DNA of 37,615 nucleotides, taken from the IMG/VR virus record IMGVR_UViG_3300036652_000706, positions 1 through 37,615 of that record. One strand, given 5' to 3'. Shown piece after piece: positions 5,264-37,615 of this stretch (its first letter is position 1; the number at the start of each line of letters is the position of its first letter). This stretch comes from a virus. The position numbers were made by a program, and so were the translations under genes. The notes under the pieces are model-generated. The model ran no database searches, was not told the DNA's origin, and saw only the letters and a program-made list of their open reading frames with translations.

Positions 5264-5355
5264 TGACCACGGGTTAACCGTAGGTGTCGTCCGTATCGAC
5301 GTAGAGATTCAAGAATTGCAAGAATTACAATTATTGTAAACATATCTAGATTATA

Positions 5356-5646
5356 CTAAACTTCTTTATTTTTGTCAAGCGCGTCATCTTCAGCGGGGCC
5401 GGGGATTTCTTTAACTTTCAACTCTCCCTTGTTATCGTTTAAGTCGATATGAAATTCCAAGTCTTTCTCAGGCGAGAATCCTAAACCAACAGATAGAATT
5501 TTAAGATATTCAGTCTGTGCTTGAGAAATATAATATTCAACCGATCTTTTAATAGTATCTAGGGAGCGAAGATATTGTAATTCATAGGGGCGAATAGTAA
5601 AGGTTTTTTCCGTATCTTCCAGTTGTTTTTTAATCTTATCGCTCAT
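5356..5646 (-). CDS. Hypothetical protein, chaperonin operon
   Basis: A 96-residue charged protein. The N-terminal 55 residues look helical (RPYELQYLRSLDTIKRSVEYY) and the C-terminus is acidic/basic and Pro-containing. It is the last gene of the leftward operon with GroEL. Its start overlaps the stop of the gene before it (ATGA). No family recognised. Its position suggests co-expression with the chaperonin, not proof of interaction. Confidence 0.65.
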   Translation of the reverse strand: MSDKIKKQLEDTEKTFTIRPYELQYLRSLDTIKRSVEYYISQAQTEYLKILSVGLGFSPEKDLEFHIDLNDNKGELKVKEIPGPAEDDALDKNKEV

Positions 5647-5912
5647 GATAATTTCCGATCTGCAGAATCAATGTCTGCTTGTTTAAAATACCTATTAGCT
5701 ACATCACCTCTATACACGTCTACAAACTCAGGATTTGGCTTACCATCTGAAGTGTAGGGCTGTACGATATCTGCTGCTAAGCGTTTCCGCTGGTCGGCAT
5801 GGCTCCATGATTTCCATTGCGTATCTACATCATTCGGTAATGGCACGTCTACCCCTTTGTGGTACTTGCCATTTTCATCTATATAGCCGGCAGTCTTACT
5901 CTTTTTCGACAT
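5643..5912 (-). CDS. Hypothetical protein, chaperonin operon
   Basis: An 89-residue hydrophilic protein with a basic N-terminus (MSKKSKTAGYIDENGKYHKG) and a region of Asp, Trp and Arg (TQWKSWSHADQRKRL). Its 5' end overlaps the 3' end of the GroEL gene by 17 nt, and its 3' end overlaps the next gene by 4 nt (ATGA). Tight coupling in the order GroES-like, GroEL, this, 96-residue protein. It resembles small soluble phage proteins of unknown function. Confidence 0.65.
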   Translation of the reverse strand: MSKKSKTAGYIDENGKYHKGVDVPLPNDVDTQWKSWSHADQRKRLAADIVQPYTSDGKPNPEFVDVYRGDVANRYFKQADIDSADRKLS

Positions 5913-7428
5913 AACTTAAGGATACTCCGGCAGTAATAAGTCCAGCAACGATACTCGTTGCATTACGGACTACTTCCTTAATGACAAGTGAGGGGTCGAT
6001 TACGCCTATTTCCAGGAGGTCTACGGGTTCTTCTGTGATGGACTTGAGGTTATATCCATACCAAAGCTTAGAAGCCTCTAAATAGGCTAGATATTTGTCA
6101 GGATTAAGCCCTGCGTTGCTGGTAAGTTGGCGAAAAGGTTCTTTGAAAGCGTCGTCGAATTCAGTACCTGTTACACGAGCAAGTGTCGTACCACCTCCAG
6201 GCACGACGCCATCTTTCATGGCAGACTGGACTGCGCATACGGCGTCTTGGACACGCAGTTTGGTTTCTTCGCGTTCCAGTTCTAATGCACCGCCCACTTT
6301 AATAATTGCCATTCTTCCAGTCAAACGACCTAACCGATCCTTAATAAACTGTACGGATTGCGGATGGTCTGATTCTTTTAACTGTTCTCGCAAGGAGGCA
6401 ATTCGTTCTTTTACTTTGTTTGTATCACTGTCGCCGCCCAAAATAGTTGTAGCATGTTCGGTAACTACCACTTCTTTAGCGAACCCTAAATAGTCAGATG
6501 GATTAAAGTCGCTGCCTTCGTATACGATGGCACCGGTCATAATAGCACAATCGTCCAGGAAAAGTGTACGTCCACCGACAACGAAGGGAGGGTCAACAGG
6601 GATGCCCATAAAAATACCATTTGATTTAGACATTTTAAGGACTGCTAATGCTTCATCTTTGACCTCTGCTAAGATGATACATTCCTTAATACCGTCGCTT
6701 ACCATTTTTTCCAATACTGGTTTGATATCGACAGCAGTAGCAAATACTTTAGAACTGATAAGAATAGGAATGTCTTTATGGTCAGATTGGTTTAAAGATA
6801 CATCGTTAATCAAGTCAGTGTCTTTGTAGCCCTTTTCAAAGTAAAAGCCGTCAATGAGTTCATTGTGAACACCTAGACCTTCGTACTGTTCAATGATTAC
6901 GCCGCCATCTTTACCAACTTCTTTCATAATGTCAGCAATCATAGCGCCTAGATTTTTATCATTTGCTGAAATGGTAGCGACTTTTTGCAAGAATTCTTCG
7001 CCTTTAACTGGCTTTTTGATTTTATCTATGTAGGCAATAGCCACTGTTTGGGCTTCGTTCAGCTTTTGGGCTATCTCCATTGGTTTGAAGCCTTTACCCT
7101 CTAGTTTTTGAGCCGCTAGAAGCAGGTGATGTTCAAGGATAGTTACTGCAGTCGTACCGTCGCCTACCTTTTTATTGTTCTTTTCCGATGCTTCTTTAAT
7201 GGCTTGGATAATGTCATCTTCGTGCGGATCTTCACTGCGTACCATTTTGATGTTCGTAACACCGTCTCTGGAAAGCATAGGTGGCCCATGTCGGAAGCCT
7301 AGGATAACATTACCGCTGCCTGGGCCGTAAGCGCTTTTAGCTACGTCATATAGTGTCTGAGACGCTTTACGAATCTTTTCTTGGACAATATCACGATTAG
7401 TTTCTACTTTAGGTATCTGTAGACTCAT
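5896..7428 (-). CDS. groL: Phage-encoded chaperonin GroEL (Hsp60)
   Basis: A 510-residue group I chaperonin that would fold proteins in an ATP-driven double ring. Nucleotide-site features are in place: AYGPGSGNV near 34-41 (the TLGPKGR loop, altered), DGVT at 55-58, GDGTT at 89-93, the catalytic Asp in RVQDAV (D395, equivalent to E. coli D398) and the VVPGGGTTLAR motif near 408-418. Equatorial, intermediate and apical parts are all present. The C-terminal Gly-Gly-Met tail of cellular GroEL is absent, and the protein is about 35 residues shorter than E. coli GroEL. It overlaps the upstream GroES-like gene by 20 nt. It probably folds the capsid or another virion protein. Confidence 0.95.
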   Translation of the reverse strand: MSLQIPKVETNRDIVQEKIRKASQTLYDVAKSAYGPGSGNVILGFRHGPPMLSRDGVTNIKMVRSEDPHEDDIIQAIKEASEKNNKKVGDGTTAVTILEHHLLLAAQKLEGKGFKPMEIAQKLNEAQTVAIAYIDKIKKPVKGEEFLQKVATISANDKNLGAMIADIMKEVGKDGGVIIEQYEGLGVHNELIDGFYFEKGYKDTDLINDVSLNQSDHKDIPILISSKVFATAVDIKPVLEKMVSDGIKECIILAEVKDEALAVLKMSKSNGIFMGIPVDPPFVVGGRTLFLDDCAIMTGAIVYEGSDFNPSDYLGFAKEVVVTEHATTILGGDSDTNKVKERIASLREQLKESDHPQSVQFIKDRLGRLTGRMAIIKVGGALELEREETKLRVQDAVCAVQSAMKDGVVPGGGTTLARVTGTEFDDAFKEPFRQLTSNAGLNPDKYLAYLEASKLWYGYNLKSITEEPVDLLEIGVIDPSLVIKEVVRNATSIVAGLITAGVSLSYVEKE

Positions 7429-12351: not shown

Positions 12352-12380
12352 ATTCTATACCCTCATATTATCTATGTCAA
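12352..12380 (-). promoter_or_regulatory. Early leftward promoter of the SSB operon
   Basis: Consensus -35 TTGACA (12380-12375), a 17-nt spacer and -10 TAGAAT (12357-12352) on the minus strand. Predicted start near 12345, about 50 nt before the first small gene. No leader hairpin, unlike the late promoters. Confidence 0.8.
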
Positions 12381-12462
12381 CAAAAAATGTTGGTAAAGAT
12401 ATTATGTTTCTATGTCGCTTATGACTGTATGTACAAAATTCGTGAGTTGATATACTGGAATT

Positions 12463-14775: not shown

Positions 14776-14937
14776 TTAGTTACCTTCTTCGTTAGTAGTA
14801 GTCATGACTTCATCCTTAGCCTCACCACTGCTGGGGGTAAGTAGCTTTCTTGGGCAATCTTCTAGCCTATGCCAAGCACCAAGCCATTTATAACACCAGC
14901 CACAAGTCATCAGCCCTGCAATATCGTCTTCGCTCAT
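14776..14937 (-). CDS. Small Cys-containing protein (53 aa)
   Basis: A 53-residue protein beginning MSEDDIAGLMTCGWCYKWLG. CGWC, a His and a third Cys (HRLEDCPRK) could bind zinc. Its start overlaps the stop of the 123-residue gene (ATGA) and it ends directly before the next gene. The Cys pattern and gap-free packing support a real gene; function unknown. Confidence 0.6.
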   Translation of the reverse strand: MSEDDIAGLMTCGWCYKWLGAWHRLEDCPRKLLTPSSGEAKDEVMTTTNEEGN

Positions 14938-15319: not shown

Positions 15320-15487
15320 TTAATCTTTAAATATCGTTGACCGAACTTTGAGACAGCCATAGCATATCTGCGTCAGGGCATCGTGGAAGGTTGAGTAGAT
15401 TGCCTGTTGGGTGTGGTGGCCTTCGCATTTTTGGATATGCTCCCTAACTTCTTCCTGGGTAGGACAGTATTCGTATTCAAAAGTCAT
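15320..15487 (-). CDS. Small zinc-finger-like protein (55 aa)
   Basis: A 55-residue protein with Cys8, Cys21, His24/25, and CYGC at 42-45, a spacing compatible with one zinc site. It begins MTFEYEYCPTQEEVREH. The ATG overlaps the TAA of the Ala-repeat gene (TAATG), so the two are coupled. Function unknown; regulatory or DNA-binding roles are common for such proteins. Confidence 0.6.
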   Translation of the reverse strand: MTFEYEYCPTQEEVREHIQKCEGHHTQQAIYSTFHDALTQICYGCLKVRSTIFKD

Positions 15488-16302
15488 TACTGTATCTCCT
15501 CTAGTTTCTTAATGTGGCTTTTCATGTAGCGGTTGATTTTAGCTTTTAGCTCGGCATAGGCGGCACGGGCGGCATCGGTGGCATAGGCGGCATCGGCGGC
15601 GGCACGGGCGGCATCGGCGGCATAGGCGGCATCGGCGGCGGCACGGGTGGCATAGGCGGCGGCATAGGCGGCATAGGCGGCACGGGCGGCATCGGCGGCA
15701 TAGGCGGCATAGGCGGCACGGGCGGCACGGGCGGCATCGGCGGCATCGGTGGCATAGGCGGCACGGGCGGCGGCATAGGCGGCACGGGCGGCATCGGCGG
15801 CATCGGTGGCATAGGCGGCACGGGCGGCGGCATAGGCAGCATCGGCGGCGGCATAGGCAGCATCGGCGGCACGGGCGGTGGCATCGGCGGTTTTCTTATT
15901 CGGTGTTTTTAGATACGCCTTCGCTGCTTTAATAGCATCACGGGGGCGACTATCGTTCGGGTACTTGTCTTCGTATATTTTAATGACCTGCTCGGCTGCA
16001 TAGATGGCAAGCGCGACACTATCCAGCGCCGTCCACTTGTACGCCTTGACTATTTTCATGGTACGGAAACATATCTTATCTGTGTCGCTGTCTGAATCGC
16101 CAGAGCCTTCGACAAGTGCTAAAACATCACCATTCACATAACCAAGGGCGTCCAAGGGTTCCTCTGAGGCATGGAAACCGTTCTCACATTTCACAATCTT
16201 GCCTTTAACGGAATACTCCTGCCCGATTTTCCAGACATGATTGCCGTGTTTGGAGGTAATTTTCCTCTTGTTCAGGTTTAGGAACTTATAGTATTGCTTC
16301 AT
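15487..16302 (-). CDS. DUF7666-like protein with long Ala-rich repeat domain
   Basis: A 271-residue protein. Residues 1-130 resemble the DUF7666-type phage/bacterial domain (GFHASEEPLDALGYVNGDVL, KICFRTMKIVKAYKW). Residues 139-250 consist almost only of the pattern Ala-Ala-X, with X mostly Asp, Tyr or Arg (AADAAYAADAARAA). The last 20 residues are a charged helix (KINRYMKSHIKKLEEIQ). AAGGAAAA stands before the ATG at 16302. The function of the family is not known to me. The repeat DNA has much higher GC than its neighbours and probably varies in length. Confidence 0.75.
   Translation of the reverse strand: MKQYYKFLNLNKRKITSKHGNHVWKIGQEYSVKGKIVKCENGFHASEEPLDALGYVNGDVLALVEGSGDSDSDTDKICFRTMKIVKAYKWTALDSVALAIYAAEQVIKIYEDKYPNDSRPRDAIKAAKAYLKTPNKKTADATARAADAAYAAADAAYAAARAAYATDAADAARAAYAAARAAYATDAADAARAARAAYAAYAADAARAAYAAYAAAYATRAAADAAYAADAARAAADAAYATDAARAAYAELKAKINRYMKSHIKKLEEIQ
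15553..15888 (-). repeat. GC-rich minisatellite coding for the Ala repeat
   Basis: About 336 nt of degenerate tandem units of 9-15 nt built from GCC-GCC plus TAT, GAT or CGT codons (on the plus strand, permutations of GGCGGCATAGGCGGCATC). Larger blocks recur, for example two near-identical copies around 15745-15780 and 15790-15830, evidence of recent unit duplication. Confidence 0.85.
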
Positions 16303-16799: not shown

Positions 16800-16951
16800 T
16801 ATCTATTCCTCCGGTTAACATACAGGTGATCGTAAGCTCGTTGGGTAGCGTTGGCAAATGAGTAACCTTGATCAATATAATATTGTCTATCTTCGATAAA
16901 AGTCTTAATCTCTTTAATTGTACCAATGGGGCGGGGAATAGTAGGATTCAT
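16799..16951 (-). CDS. Small hypothetical protein (50 aa)
   Basis: A 50-residue basic protein (MNPTIPRPIGTIKEIKTFIE, then DRQYYIDQGYSFANATQRAY). GGGAGG lies 8 nt before the ATG, which overlaps the TAA of the 51-residue gene. Part of the same early operon as its neighbours. Unrecognised. Confidence 0.55.
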   Translation of the reverse strand: MNPTIPRPIGTIKEIKTFIEDRQYYIDQGYSFANATQRAYDHLYVNRRNR

Positions 16952-17106
16952 TACTTAACCTCCCCAACAATAACTTTGTTAGCCGGTACGCCATGTGTTT
17001 CCAAGTAGTCGTACGCAAAAGCAGTGGCTTCTGCCATAGTGCCTTTGAAGTCTACACAATGGACAATCTTGTTAAAATTGGTATAGGTGATCTTGTAATT
17101 TTTCAT
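16951..17106 (-). CDS. Small hypothetical protein (51 aa), first in the early accessory operon
   Basis: A 51-residue protein with an alpha/beta pattern (MKNYKITYTNFNKIVHCVDF, then FAYDYLETHGVPANKVIVGE), resembling small phage proteins of unknown function. It is preceded by an 8-codon frame (MMKDVKAS) whose TGA overlaps its ATG, so that frame may be a leader peptide. It lies about 35 nt after the predicted start of the promoter at 17149-17177. Confidence 0.6.
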   Translation of the reverse strand: MKNYKITYTNFNKIVHCVDFKGTMAEATAFAYDYLETHGVPANKVIVGEVK

Positions 17107-17148: not shown

Positions 17149-17177
17149 ATACTACTCTTACATAAATACTATGTCAA
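17149..17177 (-). promoter_or_regulatory. Early leftward promoter
   Basis: -35 TTGACA (17177-17172), a 17-nt spacer, -10 TAGTAT (17154-17149), minus strand. The -35 lies in GGTATTGACATAGTAT, similar to one half of the palindrome at 17426-17440, so the same regulator may bind both. Confidence 0.8.
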
Positions 17178-17184
17178 TACCTTT

Positions 17185-17346
17185 TTAATTACTTATGTTT
17201 ACTTTTTCTTTTTTAGCTTCTTTTTCTATAAGGTACTCAAGTGTGCCACGTAAAGTACGCTTTTGCTTAGAAGCAATCACCTTGGCAGCTTCTTTGTACG
17301 GAATGCCAATTAAGACAGTGCGTTCGTTTTGTGGGTTGTATGACAT
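17185..17346 (-). CDS. Ribbon-helix-helix (Arc-like) regulator
   Basis: A 53-residue protein starting at the ATG after a perfect AAGGAG; longer upstream extensions lack such a site. Residues 8-16 (ERTVLIGIP) form a beta strand. Two helices follow (KEAAKVIASKQ and TLRGTLEYLIEKEAKKE) with a turn around KRT, the fold of Arc/MetJ-type repressors. It is divergent from the 89-residue gene, with overlapping -35 boxes, and lies just upstream of the early promoter. Likely a transcriptional switch protein that controls both directions. Confidence 0.75.
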   Translation of the reverse strand: MSYNPQNERTVLIGIPYKEAAKVIASKQKRTLRGTLEYLIEKEAKKEKVNISN

Positions 17347-17407
17347 ACTAAACTCCTTTTCGTGTTCAAAATAATACTGCTGATAAGTTAGGGAAGTATC
17401 TGAATAC

Positions 17408-17458
17408 ATTATAAGGTACTTATATAGTATTGACAATACTTGCATTATTTGCTAGTAT
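17408..17458. promoter_or_regulatory. Divergent promoter pair sharing one palindromic -35 operator
   Basis: Plus strand: TTGACA (17430-17435), 17 nt, TAGTAT (17453-17458). Minus strand: TTGTCA (17436-17431), 17 nt, TATAAT (17413-17408). Both -35 boxes lie in the perfect palindrome AGTATTG-A-CAATACT (17426-17440). One bound dimer pair would block or tune both promoters, like a genetic switch. Confidence 0.85.
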
Positions 17459-17464
17459 ATGTTC

Positions 17465-17734
17465 ATGAACAAAAACACTCAACCATTAGAACTAATCGTC
17501 ATGCGCGACGGCGAACTGGACGCAGACTACTACAATGCCCTCAAAGCCCGTGAACGTGCCGAGAAGCTAGAACACACAGCTAATCACGTAAAACACGTTC
17601 TAGCGGCATCTGCTGCAGCCACAGGACATTTTATCGGACGACAAGTACTTGAAACCTATTCAGGTATGTACGACATGGTAACGGGTGAACACACCTTACC
17701 TGAAATACGTGAACTACTGGCTGTAGATCGGTAA
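17465..17734 (+). CDS. Hypothetical protein from the divergent switch, leaderless
   Basis: An 89-residue helical protein (DYYNALKARERAEKLEHTAN; HVLAASAAATGHFIGRQVLE). Its -10 box ends 6 nt before the ATG at 17465, so the mRNA would start at the start codon; an in-frame ATG at 17459 would lie upstream of the start. It is transcribed opposite to the RHH gene, the place of a cro-type or antirepressor gene, but no DNA-binding fold is recognised. Confidence 0.65.
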   Translation: MNKNTQPLELIVMRDGELDADYYNALKARERAEKLEHTANHVKHVLAASAAATGHFIGRQVLETYSGMYDMVTGEHTLPEIRELLAVDR

Positions 17735-17851: not shown

Positions 17852-17922
17852 AAGCAAAATTGTAACATATGCGTGAGATATATTACTGCCTGTTCTTATT
17901 TTGTTCTTTTATACTATATGTC

Positions 17923-18003
17923 ATGAAACGTACATACACCCCCCGCATGGTCATGAACAGGATCTTGTTGCTTGGTGAGCATCCCTATTTGTTTAAGCAT
18001 TAG
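17923..18003 (+). CDS. Possible micro-protein (26 aa), leaderless
   Basis: A 26-residue basic frame (MKRTYTPRMVMNRILLLGEH) with TATACT (17910-17915) 7 nt before the ATG. No clear -35. It opens the roughly 600-nt non-coding control region. Confidence 0.3.
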   Translation: MKRTYTPRMVMNRILLLGEHPYLFKH

Positions 18004-18113
18004 AGCAATAATGTTTGTTGTAATTTGTGACTATATAGTTTGTCATAATAACAGTGGTGATTAGTATTGACACGTGTGGTATATAGAGCTACCTGTTATC
18101 CTGTCTCTCTGTC

Positions 18114-18181
18114 CGGTGGTACCATTTAGTGTCCGTCTGAACGTTCTTCTCACAGGTCAGACTCCTGTCTAGGTACCACCG
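18114..18181. ncRNA. Compact stem-loop, candidate RNA or recognition site
   Basis: A perfect 10-bp inverted repeat CGGTGGTACC (18114-18123)/GGTACCACCG (18172-18181), extendable by TAG/CTA across a 3-nt bulge. Inside, GTCTGA (18135-18140) pairs with TCAGAC (18157-18162). The right arm is followed by TCCA, recalling a tRNA acceptor end, but no canonical D, anticodon or T arm can be drawn. It lies in 18004-18234, which is otherwise without genes. Confidence 0.5.
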
Positions 18182-18234
18182 TCCAGTTTCAACGAGGTTT
18201 CCAGTATTGCCCTTTCAATTTGGATAAAAAAGAT

Positions 18235-18306
18235 TTGACAAGTAGAAAACTATTCGCTAAACTATTTAATATCGTTAAATAGCCAGCCCCCAGCAATGGG
18301 GGTTTT
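18235..18306 (+). promoter_or_regulatory. Promoter followed at once by a terminator hairpin; operator-like repeats
   Basis: TTGACA (18235-18240), a 17-nt spacer, TAAACT (18258-18263). The predicted start lies in the palindrome CTATTTAA-5-TTAAATAG (18262-18282). A CCCCC-AGCAAT-GGGGG hairpin with TTTT ends at 18306, so the default product is a roughly 37-nt RNA. ATCGTTAAATA occurs at 18271-18281 and again at 18315-18325, possible extra binding sites. The leader sequence differs from the late leaders but the layout is the same. Confidence 0.65.
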
Positions 18307-18529
18307 CTATTGTTATCGTTAAATAACCAAATAGTGTTTTAAGAATAATCTATGGCTTGTATTTTGTCAACTATTTGTTATTCTACCAGTGGTACATTGG
18401 CAGTGTGGCGCGCGGACTTCCTGAAAGAACTTATAGTGCGTCCGGTAATATTTTGGTAGCCATAAACTCCCGTATAAAATCTCTTGCCGGCAAAATGGAA
18501 GCTTTGTACCATCGGCCTCCTTAAGCTTG
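18307..18529 (+). other. Non-coding stretch ending at a strong terminator
   Basis: No supported gene. The candidate promoter TTGTAT, 16 nt, TATTCT (18357-18384) could make an RNA of about 170 nt ending at the terminator at 18530. Possible long-range pairing: GTGGTAC near 18387 with GTACCAT near 18507, and GGAC near 18417 with GTCC near 18438. A minus-strand 67-codon frame here has no ribosome-binding site and runs through the terminator. It lies near the terminase genes, so a packaging site is an alternative. Confidence 0.35.
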
Positions 18530-18565: not shown

Positions 18566-18594
18566 TTGACAATGATATCACGTACTGATATCAT
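18566..18594 (+). promoter_or_regulatory. Autoregulated promoter with palindromic operator
   Basis: TTGACA (18566-18571), 17 nt, TATCAT (18589-18594). The spacer and -10 contain the perfect inverted repeat ATGATATCA-CGTAC-TGATATCAT (18572-18594). The ATG of the RHH gene is 7 nt after the -10, so the transcript is predicted leaderless. The operator position implies repression by the product. Confidence 0.85.
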
Positions 18595-18601
18595 CAGCTA
18601 T

Positions 18602-18739
18602 ATGAGATTAATTGATGACAGCACATTGGTCCGGATCCGGAAGCCGTTAGTACAATTACTGAATGTACGTGCAATCCGGAATAAGAGCAGTATCCGGCAA
18701 GAACTGGAAGTTATCTTGCGGAAAGAGTTTAATCTGTAA
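18602..18739 (+). CDS. Second ribbon-helix-helix regulator (45 aa)
   Basis: A 45-residue protein: strand STLVRIRKP near 7-15, helix PLVQLLNVRAIRN, turn NKSS, helix SIRQELEVILRKEF. This is the beta-alpha-alpha order of Arc/MetJ/CopG-type repressors. It is first in the rightward packaging operon and directly downstream of a perfect 9+5+9 palindrome, probably its operator. Its stop overlaps the next ATG (TAATG). No Shine-Dalgarno sequence; leaderless start predicted. It probably represses the terminase operon and itself. Confidence 0.7.
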   Translation: MRLIDDSTLVRIRKPLVQLLNVRAIRNKSSIRQELEVILRKEFNL

Positions 18740-36381: not shown

Positions 36382-37615
36382 ATGGCAAACAGACAACCTA
36401 CGGGCAACAAGGTAAAGATACATACTAATTACTTTTCGGGTGGTGTAACGATTAGTAAGAAGTTAGGTATTGCTAATTCTTTTTATTACTCACAAGGACT
36501 TGATTTCCGTTCAGATCCGGCACAGATTTCTGTTTTGCCTGGTGCACGTACAGTTGCAACTAACCTTACTGATTTAATCACGGCGGTTGAGCAGGACTTG
36601 AATGGAGTACGTTGGGGCGTCGGTAGCAATGGCGGCATATATAAGATTAATACTTCCGATGTAGTGTCGAAAGAAGCACAATTAGCTACCAATGGCGCAG
36701 CAGGTATTCTCTATAACCAAGTAACTGATCAGCTTTACATACCCGATCAGACAACGGTTTCAATGTATGGACAGGTAACTACTGGTATCACAGGTAATCC
36801 CAAGTTTCGTAAGTCGCAGTTTGCACAAAGCGCTTCTACTTCCAACGGGTGTGTGAACTTATTTAATTCATCAGACGGCTTCTTTGACGGTTTGGCACGG
36901 AATAATGCCCAAAGTATTGGTGTTGGTATAACGAATGTTTCACAGGTAACTACTAATACGACTGCTACTTATTCTGTTCCCATAGCCCTATCTGAGGCTG
37001 TTGGTAACTTTTGCTACTTTGCTCCTGATATTGAACCATTTTACTCAATACCGGTATACATCGTTGCAAAGGGAACAGGAGACTGGACACTGACGCTACA
37101 TGACAGTTTGAATAACAAACTGGCAGCGGTTACGGTAACAAACGTTAACCTTACCAATAATGCTTATAATGAGTTTAAATTCACTTCTCCCGTTCGCGCT
37201 TTAGTCAGTGCTTCGCAGACTGGTACTTCTGCAACCTATCATTGGCACATAACCTCTACAGTGGCAAATGGTACGGTAGGTACTCTTACGGCAAATGATT
37301 TATCGACGGCAGATTTTCTGTTGTTCGCTTATCGTTTAGTGCAAACACAGAATGGATGGCATCCTACGGCACTCTTTACTGGTTCTGGCGTGCCGCAACT
37401 CTGTATTGGCAATGGTAATTACCTTTCAACTTATAACTTTGGTAATGATACGAATCCAACAAACTTTCAATGGGTGCGTCATCAGTTATTCTTTAAGCCA
37501 GGGTATGAAGTATGTGGCTTATCTACAAATAATCAGTATTTGGTTATTGCCGTAGAGCGTCGTTCGAGTAACAGTAATCGTAACTTTCAAGATGGGGCGC
37601 TTTACTTCTGGGATC
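36382..37615 (+). CDS. Tail tube/hub-like protein, N-terminal part (continues at 1-960)
   Basis: The first 411 codons of a 688-residue protein cut by the end of the window; bases after 37488 duplicate 1-127. It starts MANRQPTGNKVKIHTNYFSG, then shows repeated beta-propeller-like stretches (GVRWGVGSNGGIYKI; GAAGILYNQVTDQLYIPDQT), consistent with a tail hub or tube B-type protein. It begins 3 nt after the adaptor stop codon. Motif evidence is weak; position and size support the call. Confidence 0.8.
   Translation, partial: MANRQPTGNKVKIHTNYFSGGVTISKKLGIANSFYYSQGLDFRSDPAQISVLPGARTVATNLTDLITAVEQDLNGVRWGVGSNGGIYKINTSDVVSKEAQLATNGAAGILYNQVTDQLYIPDQTTVSMYGQVTTGITGNPKFRKSQFAQSASTSNGCVNLFNSSDGFFDGLARNNAQSIGVGITNVSQVTTNTTATYSVPIALSEAVGNFCYFAPDIEPFYSIPVYIVAKGTGDWTLTLHDSLNNKLAAVTVTNVNLTNNAYNEFKFTSPVRALVSASQTGTSATYHWHITSTVANGTVGTLTANDLSTADFLLFAYRLVQTQNGWHPTALFTGSGVPQLCIGNGNYLSTYNFGNDTNPTNFQWVRHQLFFKPGYEVCGLSTNNQYLVIAVERRSSNSNRNFQDGALYFWD
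37489..37614. repeat. Terminal redundancy, copy 2
   Basis: Identical to 1-126. The final base of the window (C) differs from base 127 (G), which could be a strain variant where the assembly graph forked. Confidence 0.95.

Follow-up and report, generated by a model that had tools for sequence, protein, structure and literature searches.

A predicted divergent promoter pair with a common palindromic −35 element at a putative regulatory hub of a small tailed phage

In CI/Cro-type regions of phages, such as P22 immC, divergent overlapping promoters lie between two small regulators. Switches of this type use several operators, ranked by affinity for the two repressors. The repressor mRNA can be leaderless, as is that of cI in lambda and PY54 (PMC4488713). 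The immI region of P22 carries the tiny regulator genes arc and mnt, which are divergently transcribed from overlapping promoters, the −35 of one overlapping the −10 of the other (14793–14821 and 14798–14826), and has separate operators for Arc and Mnt. Bidirectional promoters of Escherichia coli described by Warman, Grainger and colleagues consist of pseudo-symmetric DNA that RNA polymerase binds in two orientations; their common element is a −10, which the start sites flank or fall inside, and a single repressor, AcrR, can act on both directions of such a promoter (PMC12825309). In the Pc/Pr conjugation switch of pLS20, a regulator site lies over the core of overlapping divergent promoters whose favoured −10 and −35 elements coincide crosswise, and a tetrameric regulator with two operators forms a loop; overlapping promoters yield a switch only if their basal strengths are unequal and the effects of the regulator differ strongly between the two sides (PMC4207663). 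In phi29, protein p4 represses promoters A2b/A2c and activates A3 (PMC3100819).

The locus described here belongs to a small tailed phage. The window, by which we mean the whole stretch of DNA analysed (37,615 nt), is bounded by a 127-bp terminal repeat with one mismatch (1–127 and 37489–37615), and the phage genome of ~37.5 kb is therefore effectively complete and circular. Leftward genes, probably an early operon, occupy the DNA from 17346 towards 10.4 kb, those in the rightward direction start at 17465, and the locus is the point from which the two sets diverge; a rightward terminase/structural block, in which terminase and portal were identified, begins near 18600. Host assignment through the terminase returned matches of at most 46% identity, from Vampirovibrionales, Patescibacteria and archaeal bins. 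The window also encodes a GroEL-type chaperonin (5896–7428; PHROG 5725, E 1e-99) and a DUF7666 protein (15487–16302), of raised GC content, whose tail is a long Ala/Tyr/Asp/Arg-rich repeat.

Table 1. Positions of the promoters, operator-like sites and small genes at the hub, and of comparable loci in other phages.
Feature	Position	Strand	Remarks
15-bp palindrome AGTATTG-A-CAATACT, AGTATTGACAATACT	17426–17440		Proposed operator over both −35 boxes
Rightward promoter TTGACA-17-TAGTAT, TG before −10	17430–17458	+	Score 10/12; TTGACA 17430–17435, TAGTAT 17453–17458
Leftward promoter TTGTCA-17-TATAAT	17408–17436	−	Score 11/12; TTGTCA 17436–17431, TATAAT 17413–17408
53-aa protein	17185–17346	−	First gene of leftward operon; possible RHH regulator
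51-aa gene	16951–17106	−	Next in leftward operon after the 53-aa gene
89-aa protein	17465–17734	+	ATG 17465 at or next to predicted +1; no recognised family
45-aa protein	18602–18739	+	First gene of terminase/structural operon; leaderless; best RHH candidate in window
Second leftward promoter TTGACA-17-TAGTAT	17149–17177	−	Serves the 51-aa gene and onward
Second operator-like site GGTATTGACA	17172–17181	−	On −35 of promoter 17149–17177
Third operator-like site AGTATTGACA	18063–18072	+	Overlaps −10/+1 of TTGTCA-16-TAGTAT promoter (18040–18067)
12-bp palindrome TGTTCATGAACA	17460–17471		Spans +1 and ATG of the 89-aa gene; weak
CI/Cro-type pairs with shared −35 inside GTATTGACAATAC, −10 boxes conserved	L339 7109–7159; L503 1066–1116

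Two promoters are predicted back to back at the divergence point, each with a 17-nt spacer and with five of the six −35 bases in common (Table 1). Their −10 elements stand ~40 bp apart and the predicted starts, which point outward, ~64 bp apart. On sequence, the predicted pair thus falls in the class of divergent promoters with one common −35, taken here as opposite sigma-70-type promoters with spacers of 16–18 nt each and overlapping −35 hexamers, both of which would be transcribed in the cell. When the whole window was dinucleotide-shuffled 100 times, a single shuffle contained an overlapping pair that reached the combined score of 21/24 (mean number of overlapping −35 pairs per shuffle, 0.81), and the real one occupies precisely the interval between two divergent ORFs, each with a coding signal (z of 3.4 for the 53-aa gene and 3.5 for the 89-aa gene). 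An earlier sequence-only reading had described these promoters, with their spacers and with their −35 boxes inside a perfect palindrome, and all of these elements are located at 17408–17458. A statistical peculiarity of the palindrome as such was considered and rejected, the window containing four perfect 7-1-7 palindromes against 2.6 expected; what is unusual about it is its position, not its presence. There is good support for a pair of divergent, regulatory promoters that have a palindromic −35 in common. Two further arrangements were seen in the window: a second divergent pair with overlapping −35 boxes at 12352–12405, which lies in a gap of 700 bp and scores 20/24 (leftward promoter 11/12, rightward promoter 9/12), and a minus-strand promoter at 5350–5378, TTGACA-17-TATAAT, which fits the consensus perfectly, aims at the 3′-terminal part of a gene running rightward and possibly gives rise to an antisense RNA.

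Like the E. coli bidirectional promoters, the hub consists of pseudo-symmetric DNA that could be bound by RNA polymerase in two orientations, but the element held in common is the −35 instead of the −10. It resembles pLS20 in placing a proposed regulator site over the core of overlapping divergent promoters, without the crosswise coincidence of −10 and −35. The likeness to immI extends to tiny, divergent candidate regulator genes with overlapping promoters and to the length of Arc, also 53 aa; however, it is the two −35 boxes that overlap here, and a single palindrome takes the place of separate operators.

The common −35 divergent layout recurs in other phages, as a scan of IMG/VR with the pattern ATTATA-N-TTGACAA-N-TATAAT makes clear. 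Functional spacings gave at least 120 matches, against 62 with both spacers wrong, and 17/17 was the commonest spacing among the matches listed (55 of 120 raw, 24 of 71 nonredundant). Of 51 nonredundant loci with one promoter intact, 24 had the second spaced at exactly 17 nt, where a third of them would be expected to (p 0.03), a modest excess; a scan restricted to 17/17 returned at least 120 matches against 99 in a control with one spacer wrong, a raw-count comparison in which the 17/17 figure is a lower bound only. Among the matches listed, two 17/17 loci lie between divergent HTH_3 pairs (L157 and L339) and two beside RHH_1-like proteins (L312 and L348). These counts bear on whether the palindrome is a mere by-product of strong promoters that share the near-palindromic TTGACAA, in which case polymerase competition alone would operate, with no dedicated operator. 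TTGACAA is indeed a 3+1+3 palindrome in itself, and perfect 7-1-7 palindromes are, as noted, not rare. The four extra base pairs are, however, not general at shared −35 loci: among the matches listed, the full four-pair extension occurs in 1 of 71 nonredundant loci of the wider spacing scan and in 0 of 41 with exact 17/17 spacing, and therefore does not simply follow from a shared −35. The 9-mer GTATTGACA, moreover, recurs at two further promoters of the window. We regard the by-product explanation as unlikely.

The positions of GTATTGACA are informative in this respect. Its three copies in the window (17172 on the minus strand, 17427 and 18064 on the plus strand) are all at promoters, between 17172 and 18072, and together with TCATGAACA it is the only 9-mer with three or more copies inside 1 kb of non-coding regulatory region. 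Two copies provide a −35 box preceded by GTA, while the third (18064) has no good −10 of its own and falls on the −10/+1 region of a different promoter candidate. Because the 9-mer occupies a −35 position twice and a −10/+1 position once, these mixed placements appear to fit a protein-binding site better than a promoter (−35) preference. The operator-like sites at 17172–17181 and 18063–18072 each contain one half of the palindrome, the former being the half-site that the sequence-only reading had noted over the early promoter at 17149–17177. The copy at 18064, the leaderless start of the 89-aa gene and the small RHH-like protein at 18602–18739 are additions to that reading. A near copy of the 12-bp palindrome TGTTCATGAACA lies at 17948–17959; short palindromes of this kind are common.

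The 13-bp core of the palindrome, which recurs on promoter −35 boxes of other phages, links the hub to CI/Cro-type genes. A search for GTATTGWCAATAC together with a suitably spaced −10 gave 72 stretches, and the spacing was exactly 17 nt in 33 of 42 nonredundant ones. Where the 13-bp palindrome lies on a promoter −35, an HTH_3-type gene starts within 350 bp in 8 of 50 loci, compared with 1 of 48 and 0 of 40 in two control sets (together 1 of 88; Fisher p 0.018 against the first control and 0.0013 against both), a count for which the profile was partly trained on the counted loci, most proteins being independently checked with Pfam, and in which L339 and L503, 93% identical relatives, make up two of the eight. 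HTH_3 genes flank the site on both sides in L464, L477, L339 and L503. In L339 the palindrome GTATTGACAATAC coincides, as here, with a 17/17 shared −35; both −10 boxes there are consensus, and L503 retains this layout. In L514, all 15 bp of the palindrome are present close to a CI-like gene. This suggests that −35-based palindromes recur at phage regulatory hubs, most often beside CI/Cro-type genes, and might serve as a guide to regulators where the repressors of a phage are unrecognised.

The present hub can be compared with CI/Cro-type regions in particular. As in those, divergent overlapping promoters separate two small genes and a palindromic operator-like site covers the divergent promoter elements. 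In contrast to those, neither flanking product has the Cro/C1-type helix-turn-helix (no HTH_3 match; no Pfam HTH in either at E up to 1), no HTH_3 protein is apparent among the scanned ORFs of this phage, and one palindrome, with two half-site matches outside it, stands where the P22 right operator has three operators. In its anatomy the hub matches known phage regulatory regions, even though its own proteins are unrecognised. The earlier description of the switch as different from CI/Cro is accordingly weakened, given the shared −35 and the same 13-bp palindrome between HTH_3 pairs elsewhere.

It could be argued from this likeness that the hub is a lysis–lysogeny type switch, in which the 89-aa and 53-aa products occupy the CI and Cro positions as mutually antagonistic repressors of a plasmid-kept or integrase-less phage. 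Besides the divergent small genes and the palindrome and shared −35 seen between the CI/Cro-type pairs of L339 and L503, this reading can draw on the rightward transcript, which is probably leaderless, since its predicted start is at or next to ATG 17465, like the cI mRNAs of lambda and PY54. Against it, neither product matches HTH families, a lone site that covers both −35 boxes symmetrically gives, taken alone, no means of telling the promoters apart, and the evidence for second operators, from which asymmetry could arise, is no more than suggestive. Nor do the scanned ORFs include an integrase, a partition gene or a plasmid replication gene (Pfam and PHROGs for the integrase), so that the earlier remark that the phage lacks an integrase holds for these ORFs, in contrast to CI/Cro-type phages; an integrase of unrecognised type is possible. 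A lysis–lysogeny switch is thus quite unlikely. It is more improbable still, to the point of being a long shot, that the two proteins form a novel pair of repressors, free of HTH, that converged on the CI/Cro-type palindrome and shared −35 and maintains a heritable two-state switch with no integrase.

The 53-aa gene has a Shine-Dalgarno sequence AGGAG 6 nt before its ATG and a leader of ~55 nt. Its product had been called Arc-like, a label that the searches do not sustain: Pfam RHH_1 (PF01402) and Arc (PF03869) gave no match in the window at E up to 10, although the controls were detected, and the single-sequence model is one long helix with no strand (pTM 0.46), not a ribbon-helix-helix (RHH). 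No significant sequence match links it to P22 Arc, ungapped comparison with Arc and Mnt in a single register scoring at chance level, and no profile names it directly as RHH, the nearest being a weak MatP_C (RHH) match below the cut-off (E 0.08). A PDB sequence search with it produced repeat artefacts only (ubiquitin), which were discarded, and fold searches with the low-confidence models gave nothing usable. The 89-aa protein, described earlier as unrecognised, indeed matches no family, and its structure model is poor. A better RHH candidate appears to be the 45-aa protein, whose leaderless gene directly follows a strong promoter, TTGACA-17-TATCAT (18566–18594). It is the top ORF of the window against a three-sequence profile of Arc, Mnt and the L312 protein (E 0.003; only 0.42 against a profile enlarged from the loci), and it resembles the RHH_1-like, Pfam-supported protein of L312 (Z 4.2). 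As the 53-aa protein in turn resembles the 45-aa one (Z 4.6), it is plausible by transitivity that it, too, is an RHH protein.

We propose, with confidence evenly divided, that one small phage protein shuts off both promoters jointly, providing a self-limiting early turn-off and not a two-state switch. RNA polymerase would engage one of the back-to-back sigma-70-type promoters at a time, and the side that fires more would be set by promoter strength. A small DNA-binding protein, most likely the RHH-like 53-aa product of the leftward promoter, would then accumulate and bind the palindrome together with the half-sites at the next leftward promoter and near 18064. Judging from the anatomy, a symmetric site over both −35 boxes implies that its occupancy would block both promoters, so that the bound protein would silence at once the promoter it is made from, the next one in the leftward direction and the 89-aa gene on the other side, in a role like that of Cro or Arc; AcrR is a precedent for one repressor acting in both directions. 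Joint block and polymerase exclusion would therefore result in competition plus joint shut-off, not bistability, and the single symmetric site thereby speaks against the bistable switch that had been suggested. Several observations count against the proposal: no profile names the 53-aa protein as RHH and its model is helical, the two outlying sites match a single half of the palindrome, the only other copy of the locus is identical, and elsewhere the palindrome accompanies HTH_3 proteins, none of which is apparent here. A bistable or phi29-type early–late switch, though possible, would need an asymmetry that is not apparent in the sequence.

The position of the hub, with leftward genes to one side and the terminase/structural block reading rightward on the other, does recall an early-to-late timing switch in which a regulator at the shared site represses the leftward early genes and activates rightward transcription, for which phi29 p4 provides the precedent (PMC3100819). 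Both promoters nevertheless come close to consensus and do not depend on an activator, the two −35 boxes lie symmetrically within the site, and the structural operon has a strong promoter of its own at 18566, 1.1 kb away. A timing switch of this type is quite unlikely. Under the preferred reading of competition and joint shut-off, the locus offers a compact test case for RNA polymerase competition combined with one operator at a shared −35.

Relatives of the locus are few. Phage GenBank records contain no DNA match to 16.5–18.2 kb and no match to the 53-aa protein, and plasmids gave a single match at chance level. Searches of IMG/VR with both small proteins recovered only an identical contig, with 1 base difference over 17.4 kb; no diverged copy was found, and no phylogenetic footprint is therefore possible. 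Phages with related terminases (57–71% identical) mostly have rightward genes upstream of the terminase, without a counterpart of the locus.

Two minor elements lie between the hub and the structural block. A 26-codon ORF (17923–18003) has its ATG at the expected +1 of a −10-like TATACT (17910–17915) and is possibly a third leaderless start on the plus strand. Within an 830-bp gap without clear genes, the stretch 18065–18310 is structured and non-coding (RNA fold z −3.4) and ends at a terminator (18285–18304); it had no match in an Rfam search and is possibly a phage small RNA.
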